Origin: Cyanobium sp. ATX 6A2
Lineage (GTDB): Bacteria > Cyanobacteriota > Cyanobacteriia > PCC-6307 > Cyanobiaceae
Reading direction: 5' to 3'
Assembly: GCF_024346355.1 (NCBI RefSeq)
Contig: NZ_JAGQCU010000024.1
Span: 1 to 36,116, forward strand
DNA length: 36,116 nt
Of the stretch, positions 999 through 3,815 are shown piece by piece. A program made the position numbers and the translations under genes. The notes under the pieces were generated by a model. It worked only from the letters and a program-made list of their open reading frames with translations, had not been told where the DNA came from and ran no database searches. How positions within the stretch are numbered: position 1 is the first letter of the stretch; each line of letters starts with the position of its first letter.

Positions 999-1034
999 GG
1001 GATTGCTGCGCGCGCCGCGCTCTGCTCGGCCCCG

Positions 1035-1040
1035 ACCCTA
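1035..1040 (-). promoter_or_regulatory. Possible -10 element (TAGGGT) for the hydroxylase gene
   Basis: Read on the minus strand, CCTAGGGTCGGGGC lies 37 bases before the hydroxylase start. TAGGGT fits the loose cyanobacterial -10 pattern TANNNT, and the same TAGGGTCGGGGC string precedes uppP at 29639. No clear -35 was found. Confidence 0.35.
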
Positions 1041-1197
1041 GGGATCACGTGCGCCCGCTTCTCGCGCCCGCCGTTGGCGGCCCCTACGATTCACGAGTTC
1101 TGTCAGCAGTGGCGTGGCTGCAGCTCCTGAACCACGGTTTTCGAGCTTCAGCCGAACACGTCGCCGGCTGGCCCAATCCCCCAAGGAGGAGGTGCCC

Positions 1198-1251
1198 GTG
1201 CGTTCCAGTTGTTTCACCAAGGGTCTGCTGATCGCGGAGAACGCCGCCTGA
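1198..1251 (+). CDS. Putative 17-residue leader peptide or small protein
   Basis: A GTG-started ORF encodes MRSSCFTKGLLIAENAA. It is preceded at ideal spacing by AAGGAGG (1183-1189), the best Shine-Dalgarno sequence in the window; most large genes here have a weak one or none. An in-frame GTG at 1192 is a less likely start because it abuts the ribosome binding site. A strong hairpin follows 56 bases after the stop. I do not recognise the peptide. It could be a leader controlling the downstream hairpin, a small protein of its own, or the remnant start of a lost gene. No function is assigned. Confidence 0.4.
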   Translation: MRSSCFTKGLLIAENAA

Positions 1252-1307
1252 TTACGGCGCCTCAACCCTGATCAAACGGTTCCGCGACCGACGCGGACCC
1301 GGCGAGA

Positions 1308-1350
1308 GCCCCCGGCGTCCCTGATTCAGGGATTCCGGGGGCATCGCTTT
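1308..1350 (+). terminator. Strong hairpin with weak T-tail (terminator or attenuator candidate)
   Basis: The outer stem GCCCCCGG (1308-1315) pairs with CCGGGGGC (1335-1342). Inside it lies a second 6-bp stem, TCCCTG (1318-1323) with CAGGGA (1327-1332), around a 3-nt loop, and the two stems are separated by a 2x2 internal loop. The tail ATCGCTTTT is only weakly U-rich. It stands between the 17-codon ORF and the porin gene, where it could end the small transcript or act as an attenuator. Confidence 0.5.
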
Positions 1351-1473
1351 TGTGGCACCTCTTCTCCCCGCTCGGCGTCCCTGCCCGCGGCAGGGCCATT
1401 GCACGCTCTGGCACAGCCGTCCTGGGTGGGAATGACCACGGGCGACACACTGTGCTCGGCGCATTGCGCCTCT

Positions 1474-1485
1474 TGTGTGAGGAAC
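1474..1485 (+). promoter_or_regulatory. Porin RBS region: sRNA target site and anti-3'UTR site
   Basis: TGTGTGAGGAAC lies 7 to 18 bases upstream of the porin ATG (1492) and contains the Shine-Dalgarno-like GAGGA. A small hairpin GGCGC-ATT-GCGCC (1458-1470) sits just before it. The GTGTGAGGA core is complementary to the conserved UCCUCACAC of the cyanobacterial sRNA Yfr1, which is reported to repress porin (som) mRNAs in Prochlorococcus. The same 12 bases are perfectly complementary to 2961-2972 in the porin 3'UTR. Confidence 0.6.
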
Positions 1486-1491
1486 ATCCCC

Positions 1492-2931
1492 ATGAAACTC
1501 TTCCAGAAACTCCTGGTTGCTCCTGCGGCGCTTGGTCTGCTGGCCCCTATGGCCGCCACCGCTGCTGAGATCAACCTGGATGGCGTCAACCAGTACGCCA
1601 GTGACGAACAGGTCACCAGCATCTCCCAGTTCCCCGACGTGCGCCCCACGGACTGGGCCTACCAGGCGCTCGCCAACCTGATCGAGCGCTACGGCTGCGT
1701 GGCCGGCTACCCCGACGGCACCTTCAAGGGCCAGCGGGCCATGACCCGCTTCGAGGCCGCCGCCCTGCTCAACGCCTGCCTCGATCGCGTCACCGAGGTG
1801 ACCGACGAGCTCAAGCGCCTGATGGCCGAGTTCGAGCGGGAACTCGCCATCCTCAAGGGCCGCGTCGATGGCCTCGAAGCCAAGGTGGGTGAGCTGGAGG
1901 CCAACCAGTTCTCCACCACCACCAAGCTGCGCGGTATCGCCACCATGACCGTGGGCGGTGCCGGCGAGACCGGCCTGGGCGACAACGTCACCGTCAACTA
2001 CGACGTTCGCCTGAACTTCGACACCAGCTTCACCGGCAAGGATCTGCTGCGCACCACCCTGCGTGCCGGCAACTTCGGTGATTCGGTGTTCGGCAGTGGC
2101 AACACCACCATGGAAGTGGCCTTCGAGGGCGCTTCCGGTCCCGATTCGGTGGAAATCAACCGCCTCTTCTACCAGTTCCCCGTTGGTGAGAACTGGACCG
2201 CTACCGCCGGTGCCAAGGTTCGTCAGGACGACATGCTGGCCATGTGGCCCAGCGCCTACCCGGCCGACACGATCCTTGACATCTTCACCTATGCAGGTGC
2301 ACGGGCTGCCTACAGCCTGAACACCGGCGCCGGTGTTGGTATCTGGTACAAGCCTTCAGAGGGCGGTTTCAACGCCAGCGTCAACTACGTGTCGGCCTCT
2401 GACTCCGCTCGTGATTCGTCCGAAGGTGTCGGTGAGGATTACACAGTCACCGCACAGGTGGGCTATGCAGGCGAGAACTGGGGTGCGGCTTTTGCCTACA
2501 CCTATTCCAATCTCGACTACATCTTCGACAACAGCTCCAACAACATCGGCCTGAGCGCCTACTGGTCTCCCGCCGAGTCCGGTTGGGTGCCTTCCATCAG
2601 CGCCGGCTTCGGCTACAGCGACTTCAACACCAGCCGCCCCTTCGACGAGGGCTACAGCTGGATGGTGGGTCTGCAGTGGGAAGACATGTTCATGCAGGGC
2701 AACGCCCTGGGCATGGCCATCGGCAGCGCCGGTCAGTCCAACCGTGGCAGCGGCCGCATCGACACCCTCGGTGTCTGGAGCGACCCCGGCAGCGACACCC
2801 TGGCCTACGAGCTCTGGTACAAGTTCCAGGTCACCGACAACATCAGCGTCACCCCCGCCTTCTTCTGGGTTGATCGCAGTGGTCGCGATGACACCTACGG
2901 CGGCGTGATCAAGACCACCTTCACCTTCTGA
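1492..2931 (+). CDS. Outer-membrane porin with SLH domain (SomA/OprB type)
   Basis: This encodes a 479-residue outer-membrane porin for passive uptake of small solutes. A signal peptide (MKLFQKLLVAP...AATAA) ends near residue 25. An SLH domain (about residues 40-100, with FPDVRPTDWAYQALANLIERYG and the typical GYPDGTF) anchors to the peptidoglycan-linked polymer. A coiled coil follows (about 100-145), then an OprB-type beta barrel to the end, closing with the terminal Phe expected for BAM-dependent insertion. The ATG at 1492 is chosen because it opens the signal peptide and follows GAGGA; the longer frame from 1399 would put 31 extra residues before the signal. The 5'UTR and 3'UTR are structured (see 1474-1485 and 2949-2989), and a terminator follows at 3040. 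Confidence 0.95.
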   Translation: MKLFQKLLVAPAALGLLAPMAATAAEINLDGVNQYASDEQVTSISQFPDVRPTDWAYQALANLIERYGCVAGYPDGTFKGQRAMTRFEAAALLNACLDRVTEVTDELKRLMAEFERELAILKGRVDGLEAKVGELEANQFSTTTKLRGIATMTVGGAGETGLGDNVTVNYDVRLNFDTSFTGKDLLRTTLRAGNFGDSVFGSGNTTMEVAFEGASGPDSVEINRLFYQFPVGENWTATAGAKVRQDDMLAMWPSAYPADTILDIFTYAGARAAYSLNTGAGVGIWYKPSEGGFNASVNYVSASDSARDSSEGVGEDYTVTAQVGYAGENWGAAFAYTYSNLDYIFDNSSNNIGLSAYWSPAESGWVPSISAGFGYSDFNTSRPFDEGYSWMVGLQWEDMFMQGNALGMAIGSAGQSNRGSGRIDTLGVWSDPGSDTLAYELWYKFQVTDNISVTPAFFWVDRSGRDDTYGGVIKTTFTF

Positions 2932-2948
2932 TCGCCTGATCGCCTGAT

Positions 2949-2989
2949 CCCCAGGGCCTGGTTCCTCACACACCCGCCTGGCCCCGGGG
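2949..2989 (+). ncRNA. Porin 3'UTR hairpin displaying a Yfr1-like anti-RBS motif
   Basis: CCCCAGGGCC (2949-2958) pairs with GGCCCCGGGG (2980-2989) with a single A-C mismatch and leaves a 21-nt loop. The loop contains GTTCCTCACACA (2961-2972), the exact reverse complement of the porin ribosome binding region at 1474-1485. A pyrimidine-rich stretch (about 3001-3035) and a terminator (3040-3065) follow. This is the layout of 3'UTR-derived regulatory RNAs: displayed seed, unstructured linker, terminator. Whether it is processed or separately transcribed cannot be seen from sequence. Confidence 0.5.
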
Positions 2990-3039
2990 ATTCCTCGATC
3001 AGTCTTCTCCTTCCACACTTCTCCTCGTCGTCCTCGACA

Positions 3040-3065
3040 AACCCCGGCTCCGGCCGGGGTTTTTT
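3040..3065 (+). terminator. Rho-independent terminator of the porin transcript
   Basis: A 9-bp perfect stem (AACCCCGGC 3040-3048 with GCCGGGGTT 3053-3061) has a 4-nt TCCG loop and a T run to 3065, followed by GTTG. It lies 109 bases after the porin stop, leaving room for the 3'UTR element. Confidence 0.9.
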
Positions 3066-3084
3066 GTTGCCGCCGCGGGTTTCC

Positions 3085-3090
3085 TAGGGT
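3085..3090 (+). promoter_or_regulatory. Possible -10 element (TAGGGT) for the J-domain gene
   Basis: TTCCTAGGGTGCAGG lies 30 bases before the TTG start at 3120, just downstream of the porin terminator. TAGGGT fits TANNNT. The -35 candidate TTGTTG (3064-3069) is only 15 bases away, so this is a weak call. Confidence 0.35.
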
Positions 3091-3119
3091 GCAGGTCTTG
3101 CCGCAGTCGCCCTGCTGAG

Positions 3120-3815
3120 TTGAGTTCCCACAGCGTCCCCACCGCTGCCGCCGCCCCCGACCCCTACCGGGTGCTGGGCGTGTCGCCCGAGGCCAGTGGC
3201 GCGGAGATCAAGGCCGCCTACCGCAGCCTGGTGAAACAGCACCACCCCGACGCCGGGGGCGATGAAACCACGATCCTGGCTCTGAACGCGGCCTGGAACG
3301 TGCTCCGCGACCGGGAGCGCCGCCGCGGCTACGACCGCCAGCGGGCCGTGAGCCGCCGCAGCGCCACCTCCGCCGCCCGTGCGGCCGCCAGGTCGCCCGC
3401 CGGCCCCGCAGCGTCTGAAGAACAGATGCTGGCCTGGCTGCGGCAGGTGTATGCCCCCATCGACCGGCTTCTCGCTCAGGTGGTGAATCCCTTTCCCGCC
3501 CAGCTGCGCTCCCTGGCCGCCGATCCCTACGACGACGGGATCATGGAAGCCTTCTGCGCCTTTCTCGAGCAGAGTCAAACGCGCATGGGCCGGGTGGAGA
3601 GTCTCTTCCGCTCCCAGCCCTGCCCCGCCGGTCTGCAGGAGTTCAGCCTGGAGCTCTATCACTGCCTGAGCCTGGTGAAGGACGCCCTGCTCGATCTGGA
3701 GCGCTACACCATGGGCTATGTGGATTCCTACCTGCGCGACGGCCGCGAGCTCCTGCGCAAGGCCGGCCTGCGCCGCCGGCAGCTGCACGAGAGCCGCCGG
3801 CAGCTGCAGCGCTGA
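3120..3815 (+). CDS. J-domain (DnaJ-like) co-chaperone
   Basis: This encodes a 231-residue protein with an N-terminal J domain (about residues 14-75) that carries the HPD motif at 42-44, needed to stimulate Hsp70 ATPase. There is no Gly/Phe region, zinc finger or DnaJ C-terminal domain, so it is a class III J-protein that recruits DnaK to a specific client. The rest is helical and unrecognised. No ATG is available in frame upstream of the domain, so TTG at 3120 is taken as the start. Its stop codon abuts the stop of the convergent ndhO, the two forming TGATCA (3813-3818). The client is unknown. Confidence 0.85.
   Translation: MSSHSVPTAAAAPDPYRVLGVSPEASGAEIKAAYRSLVKQHHPDAGGDETTILALNAAWNVLRDRERRRGYDRQRAVSRRSATSAARAAARSPAGPAASEEQMLAWLRQVYAPIDRLLAQVVNPFPAQLRSLAADPYDDGIMEAFCAFLEQSQTRMGRVESLFRSQPCPAGLQEFSLELYHCLSLVKDALLDLERYTMGYVDSYLRDGRELLRKAGLRRRQLHESRRQLQR

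Follow-up and report, generated by a model that had tools for sequence, protein, structure and literature searches.

The window, by which we mean the whole 36,116-nucleotide stretch of Cyanobium sp. ATX 6A2 DNA analysed here, belongs to a genome of 3.0 Mb (G000), and the region of interest within it is a porin gene together with its immediate 5′ and 3′ flanks (Table 1). The nearest relatives of this porin are Cyanobium sp. porins with 89-90% identity. A search for a sigma-70-like promoter in the interval 1000-3200 found none. Further upstream there is a short open reading frame (1198-1251) that has a GTG start, follows GGAGGAGG and has SSCFTKGLLIAENAA at its stop; the pattern of the final 30 bases is found again in front of porins in five other genomes of the same genus (loci L023, L024, L027, L028 and L029, with L156-L158 apparently being copies of three of these), and it is possible that this is a conserved small protein gene or a leader peptide. 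Closer to the gene, a sequence resembling the 1458-1470 hairpin, GCGCATTGCGCC, recurs 5′ of the RBS in many related porins.

Table 1. Features at the porin locus, with positions in the window
Feature	Position	Strand	Basis
Short 5′UTR hairpin GGCGCATTGCGCC, directly 5′ of the RBS	1458..1470	+	Sequence
RBS element TGTGTGAGGAAC, containing GTGTGAGGA; complements the Yfr1 motif core and the 3′UTR loop	1474..1485	+	Core conserved
Porin CDS, 479 aa, SLH and OprB	1492..2931	+	ATG at 1492, stop at 2929-2931; PF00395, PF04966
Predicted 3′UTR stem-loop presenting the motif	2936..3002	+	Fold, 22 pairs in interrupted helices; stem covariation
13-nt apical loop with 8-nt core CCTCACAC (2964-2971)	2963..2975	+	Predicted fold
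Pyrimidine-rich linker; TTCCACAC at 3011-3018 is a degenerate second copy	3003..3038	+	Sequence, fold
Intrinsic terminator, 10-bp stem and T tract	3039..3066	+	Sequence

The first-pass annotation of this DNA noted that the sequence immediately before the porin start, TGTGTGAGGAAC (1474-1485), is perfectly complementary over 12 nt to GTTCCTCACACA (2961-2972) behind the stop codon, and that such a match is unlikely to occur by chance. Both observations hold. The two segments form the longest perfect inverted pair among the pairs listed for 1380-3080, and when the 100 nt preceding the start and the 136 nt following the stop were compared in 3000 dinucleotide shuffles, a 12-nt complement was never reached (0/3000), the longest being 11 nt, which was seen four times. 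The 3′ copy was also described as lying in a hairpin that is followed by a pyrimidine-rich linker and then by a terminator (3039-3062), all of which we find as stated, but the hairpin itself is larger than the 10-bp stem and 21-nt loop at 2949-2989 that had been proposed, with a fold that extends from 2936 to 3002 and closes on a loop of 13 nt. Of the 12-mer, the two leading bases (2961-2962) fall in a weak inner helix of 3 bp in this predicted fold. The hexamer TCACAC is enriched in the linker tails, being found in 12 of 48 among the matches listed, where shuffles averaged 3.0 and did not exceed 8.

The first-pass annotation missed that the cyanobacterial small RNAs Yfr1 and Yfr10 bind their targets through a motif whose core is the 3′ copy. 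The window's TTCCTCACAC resembles the motif ACUCCUCACAC that is ultraconserved in Yfr1 and shared with Yfr10 (PMC2190773, PMC2518516, PMC6778093), and the porin RBS carries GUGUGAGGA, a target site of the Yfr1 type that is also carried by Yfr2. With the Yfr1/Yfr10 core on one side and a target of the Yfr1 type on the other, the match is part of a known network (PMC6778093, PMC2190773) rather than an isolated pairing. A single code is thus written at four kinds of site, with Yfr1 and the porin 3′UTRs carrying CCUCACAC and Yfr2 and the porin RBSs carrying GUGUGAGG. Yfr1 has a stem-loop on either side of the motif, which is itself left unpaired, and Yfr10 has it in a loop atop a stem (PMC6778093). 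Two porin mRNAs are Yfr1 targets in Prochlorococcus MED4, and in E. coli the Prochlorococcus Yfr1 represses a porin 5′UTR reporter 4.7-fold, an effect that is reversed by Yfr2 (PMC6778093); the first report of porin targets of Yfr1 is that of Richter et al. 2010, as cited in PMC6974561.

The genome from which the window comes encodes its own Yfr1 (C1:222949-223007, 61.1 bits). It also contains an RF01701 (Cyano-1) RNA at C7:68978-69050 (47.6 bits), which we take to be Yfr2 and whose 5′ end, reading GTGTGAGGAGT, fits this assignment. A second Yfr1 match in the genome (C46:90225-90284) was not counted, as it scores 31 bits where the cut-off is 38, has a degenerate motif and is seemingly located at the end of a reading frame. 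We can dismiss a Yfr1 gene within the window, where there is no Rfam match at the gathering score and none in 1300-3200 at E values up to 10, and genome-wide the 9-mer TCCTCACAC is not enriched, with 13 sites for it and 13 for the reversed pattern. Elsewhere in the same genome, locus L009 at ~1495-1550 (C1 ~83275) contains GAAGTGTGAGGAG followed by a hairpin-like stretch with no Rfam match at E 0.1, and its sequence makes a second Yfr2-like RNA possible. At locus L016, near position 1500 (C9 62865-62873, minus strand), a Yfr1-like motif, TTCCTCACACACAATC, stands ~20 nt before an ATG in a possible 5′UTR, and a match to IsrR (RF01419, 160.6 bits) is located ~1 kb away in the same locus.

Five porin matches are present in the window's own genome, and two of these have both motifs: the window porin itself and C4:22104-23588, with GTGTGAGGA at its RBS and CCTCACACA in its 3′UTR ahead of a terminator-like hairpin. 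The match at C46:37165-38649 has GTTGTGAGGA and CCTCACTC, while neither motif was seen at C46:38842-40248 or at C46:104097-105545 (86% identical to the window porin), the starts of both being uncertain. For comparison across the genus we used one porin from each of 13 genomes, this being the best-scoring match in 12 of them; in G007 a 55-aa fragment at a contig end (L047, 73% identity) was used in place of L034 (60%), which scores best but lacks both motifs. CTCACAC is found in the 3′UTRs of 11 of the 13 porins, the window included, with L047 having CCTCACTC and L032 (G006) having lost CTCACAC. It is kept in 10 of the 12 other porins, compared with a median of 1 of 12 for the 7-mers of the window 3′UTR, and is the best-kept block of that 3′UTR across the 13 genomes apart from the terminator region. 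In L032 the hairpin is kept, with GTTCCTCCGA as its loop; the CACAC is gone, the CCTC facing the Shine-Dalgarno sequence is kept, and the RBS is still TGTGTGAGGAAC.

A larger sample of porins was drawn from 24 new loci (L052-L075) and 80 regions taken by place, mostly higher-scoring, among the matches listed. There are 137 distinct porin ends among the matches listed, of which the 128 with both ends were used, and a further 49 distinct porins were added from 79 named-genome loci, the remainder being duplicates or incomplete. The 177 porins comprise the window's family and its named relatives, with a few named records possibly lying outside the family and one being a misnamed Bifidobacterium MAG; start codons were assigned by a script, and some may be wrong. 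Among these 177 porins from the matches listed, CTCACAC is present in the first 120 nt of the 3′UTR in 48 of the 119 that have the RBS motif and in 0 of the 58 that do not, and the corresponding figures for CCTCACAC are 40/119 and 0/58. For the 128 porins, again among the matches listed, CCTCACAC occurs no more than 120 nt after the stop in 34 of the 84 with GTGAGG at the RBS and in none of the 44 without it; against this total of 34/128, 200 shuffles gave 1.2 on average and 5 at most, and the shorter word CCTCAC gives a softer split (42/84 vs 3/44). Among the matches listed, the 3′ motif is absent from 71 of the 119 porins with the RBS motif, including the best porin of G006.

Outside this group, we took as an outgroup 30 porin ends, drawn from 15 genomes in other families of the same class, using an RBS rule looser than that behind the 177-porin count, and found the RBS motif in 18, the 3′ motif in 2 and both in 1; for one of the two porins with the 3′ motif no RBS motif was found. 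From these proportions the RBS site is widespread, and is presumably old, and the 3′UTR copy, which is rarer than the RBS site, occurs mainly in the sampled Cyanobium-like picocyanobacteria. On the porin tree the 3′ motif accounts for 25 changes, gains and losses not being told apart, and the RBS motif for 13. When the association between the two motifs is treated as a series of independent evolutionary events, using independent pairs on this tree, it is never contradicted but is not significant, with median p values of 0.25 (0.06-0.5) and 0.0625 (0.016-0.5).

The covariation between the two UTRs that the first-pass annotation looked to does not extend to the sequences flanking the core. Across the 42 genes that have both motifs, the mean contiguous extension of the pairing is 3.10 when a 5′ region is matched with its own 3′UTR and 3.08 when it is matched with a swapped one (permutation p 0.48), and the numbers of flank pairs are 4.14 and 4.05 respectively (p 0.22). 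A private 12-nt duplex between the 5′ and 3′ ends that is under selection is therefore ruled out by this comparison, and what is conserved is a core of 7-9 nt and not the 12-nt match as a whole. Because own flanks pair no better than swapped ones, the window's 12 nt consist of this conserved core and neighbouring bases that are not generally maintained. The same result bears on an intramolecular pairing of the icaR kind, in which the RBS and the 3′UTR of a single mRNA pair in cis and block translation. The 12-nt perfect match in the window would suit such an arrangement, and when the 1.67-kb mRNA is folded whole, the structure of minimum energy joins the RBS to 3008-3017, the linker copy in the 3′UTR; but the loop core is open in that structure, folds of this length are unreliable, and with own-gene flanks doing no better than swapped ones we consider pairing in cis to be improbable.

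In 26 of the 48 motif-bearing 3′UTRs among the matches listed, the motif is enclosed by a contiguous helix of 7 bp or more; flank shuffles gave 2.6 on average and never more than 8. This count replaces a first criterion of at least 6 non-contiguous pairs, which was too loose (31/48 vs a shuffled mean of 13.4 and maximum of 21). In an alignment of 26 distinct rows, changes on both sides of the stem are seen at 8 of 8 paired positions (61 cells) with 97.1% of cells remaining paired, and the covariation score was reached by none of 500 shuffles. Because this alignment was fitted to the model, because the seeds were picked for having the hairpin, and because the 29 rows include a weak match (L030 2955-2994) that is not on the porin's strand, more of the independent weight rests with the contiguous-helix count. 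In some loci, L048, L050, L126, L150 and L152 among them, the motif is near the terminator without a contiguous helix, an arrangement that recalls the 3′ half of Yfr1. The persistence of the motif in the loop while the stems change would fit recognition by a protein too, and a protein-binding motif has been raised as an alternative for Yfr1 itself (PMC2190773). Nonetheless, the core is the complement of the RBS and among the 177 porins from the matches listed it occurs only with that RBS, and we find it very doubtful that the loop serves to bind a protein or another RNA, or to stabilise the 3′ end, with the Yfr1 match as a by-product.

A covariance model (R1) was built from eight of the hairpins and run on whole genomes; it matches the window 3′UTR at 2954-2984 with 31.2 bits. 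At E <= 1 there are 15 matches in the 13 genomes of the genus, 12 of them (including four model seeds) directly behind a porin. One further match (L239) is in a poor assembly and has near-identical 3′UTR sequence with no porin match found, and the remaining two are weak and non-porin. In 121 genomes of the family, 18 of the 23 matches at E <= 0.1 stand directly behind a porin, including all 14 at E <= 0.0205, three of which are model seeds; the other five are weaker and are not behind a recognised porin. The model gave no match in 99 of the 121 genomes, absences that are soft because scoring was confined to the top candidates from a permissive initial pass and the 121-genome run used stricter filters. 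The best genome-wide matches to the hairpin thus stand behind porins. Three places (L270, L271 and L272, ~1501-1526; two in G073 and one in G130) share one sequence, a G+C-rich hairpin that contains ACTCCTCACAC and has no neighbouring porin match, which could possibly be a repeat or another Yfr10-like RNA. A chance match with no function is scarcely credible: the length of 12 nt in the window is partly luck, perfect runs ranging from 7 to 12 nt in the 42 genes with both motifs, but for the core this explanation is contradicted by its conservation, by the covariation and by the preference for porin 3′UTRs.

The predicted energy of pairing between the RBS and the 3′UTR core is -8.8 kcal/mol, the same as that between the RBS and Yfr1 (-8.8 kcal/mol), and it is -10.0 kcal/mol with the full 12 nt; the loop core is also predicted to be as accessible as the Yfr1 core. 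Yfr2 is a plausible partner of the 3′UTR loop as well, raising the alternative that the loop acts as a sponge, titrating Yfr2 by way of GUGUGAGGAGU in its 5′ tail, with abundant porin mRNA freeing Yfr1 to repress porins and its other targets. The candidate at C7:68978-69050 has GTGTGAGGAGT at its 5′ end and a predicted pairing with the 3′UTR of -7.4 kcal/mol. Yfr2 is known to bind both Yfr1 and Yfr10 and to counteract Yfr1 (PMC6778093), and SroC provides a precedent for a 3′ sponge whose parental mRNA is targeted by the sponged RNA (PMC9438474). We nevertheless regard a sponge as unlikely, although it is to be taken seriously: in prediction Yfr2 prefers Yfr1 (-11.0 vs -7.4 kcal/mol), and a sponge need not be limited to porins with the RBS motif, yet CTCACAC is in the 3′UTR of 0 of the 58 porins lacking it among the matches listed.

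Several known systems resemble the window element in part. As in Yfr10, the Yfr1-motif core, with 9 of the 11 motif bases in the window, is in a loop atop a stem in the predicted fold; Yfr10, however, is an intergenic sRNA that in MED4 is beside Yfr2 and has a common precursor with it (PMC2518516, PMC6778093), whereas the window element is in the 3′UTR of a target mRNA. The likeness to Yfr1 (RF01116) lies in the core UCCUCACAC, which is complementary to porin RBSs with an equal predicted energy, but Yfr1 is a separate gene with its motif between two stem-loops, and the window's motif core is in an apical loop. The intact 11-mer of Yfr1 is not in the window, which has GTTCCTCACAC (9/11), although porin 3′UTRs at L266 and L269 do contain it. 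With GUGUGAGGA at its RBS, the window porin has the mark of a Yfr1-regulated porin mRNA. OppZ and CarZ of Vibrio cholerae are cases in which 3′UTR sequence pairs with its own transcript and inhibits translation (PMC7398697), and the window has the same layout, with an element ahead of a terminator that is complementary to its own initiation region; release by RNase E and repression have been demonstrated for OppZ and CarZ (PMC7398697), whereas the window element is known from its sequence and shares its core with an sRNA family. The icaR mRNA of Staphylococcus aureus has a C-rich 3′UTR motif complementary to its own Shine-Dalgarno region (PMC3868564), but in the porins compared here the flanks give no support for a gene-private pairing, and the motif, carried by the loop of a hairpin, is part of the Yfr1/Yfr2 network. 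ApcZ of Synechocystis is a cyanobacterial sRNA from an mRNA 3′ end (PMC8136909, PMC9438474) that differs in its parent gene and its target, and no tie to the Yfr1 motif was seen.

The simplest account of these observations is a Yfr10-like 3′UTR element that feeds back on porins, alone or together with Yfr1, and that touches Yfr2. We consider it marginally probable that the porin 3′UTR is a conserved, structured RNA element of the Yfr10 type which gives negative feedback on porin translation and is tied to Yfr2. The hairpin loop would display the Yfr1 core CCUCACAC, with the linker and intrinsic terminator behind it, and upon full transcription of the porin the 3′ end would act, either as a released 3′UTR fragment or while still attached, by pairing with GUGUGAGGA at the RBSs of its own mRNA, of other copies of that mRNA and of sister porin mRNAs. 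This pairing would add to the repression expected from Yfr1 at porin RBSs, and Yfr2 should be bound by this loop as well. That the RNAs pair in cells, that translation is repressed and that a small RNA is released are what we infer from the conserved motif and its predicted energies. The first-pass suggestion that the 3′UTR could shut off translation of its own porin and of sister porins thus fits the evidence, in that the core is conserved and, by prediction, accessible in a hairpin whose stems covary, and CTCACAC occurs only with a complementary RBS among the 177 porins from the matches listed; its picture of an isolated, 12-nt pairing does not survive. Counting against the feedback reading are the presence of Yfr1 already in the genome, the prediction that Yfr2 binds the loop almost as well (-7.4 kcal/mol), and the flank complementarity, which is not gene-specific. 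The same holds for the 71 porins that have the RBS motif but not the 3′ motif, the softer split with CCTCAC, the outgroup porin with the 3′ motif alone, the non-significant independent pairs and the hairpin-model matches that do not stand behind a recognised porin.

By analogy, OppZ and CarZ (PMC7398697), icaR (PMC3868564) and the SroC sponge (PMC9438474) serve as precedents for such an element. Among the papers listed in our literature searches, no title or abstract opening mentions a Yfr1 motif in a porin 3′UTR; one of the Yfr10 RNAs reported for Synechococcus WH8102 (PMC6778093) might already represent an element of this kind. How the effect of Yfr1 on its targets is modulated is a question asked in PMC6974561.

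More tentatively, and with somewhat less than even confidence, we suggest that porin mRNAs of Cyanobium-type picocyanobacteria may be both targets and producers of Yfr1/Yfr10-type RNA, the seed of the regulator having entered the 3′UTR of its targets, such that each full transcript would release or carry an RNA unit able to repress every porin that has the RBS motif and to compete for Yfr2 with Yfr1. If this is so, the Yfr1-Yfr2 hub would sense outer-membrane protein load. A Yfr1 core conserved within target mRNAs would constitute a direct and testable feedback loop on outer-membrane protein supply, and with 25 changes on the porin tree it would show how, in nature, the seed of a small RNA can be gained or lost many times in the 3′UTRs of its targets.
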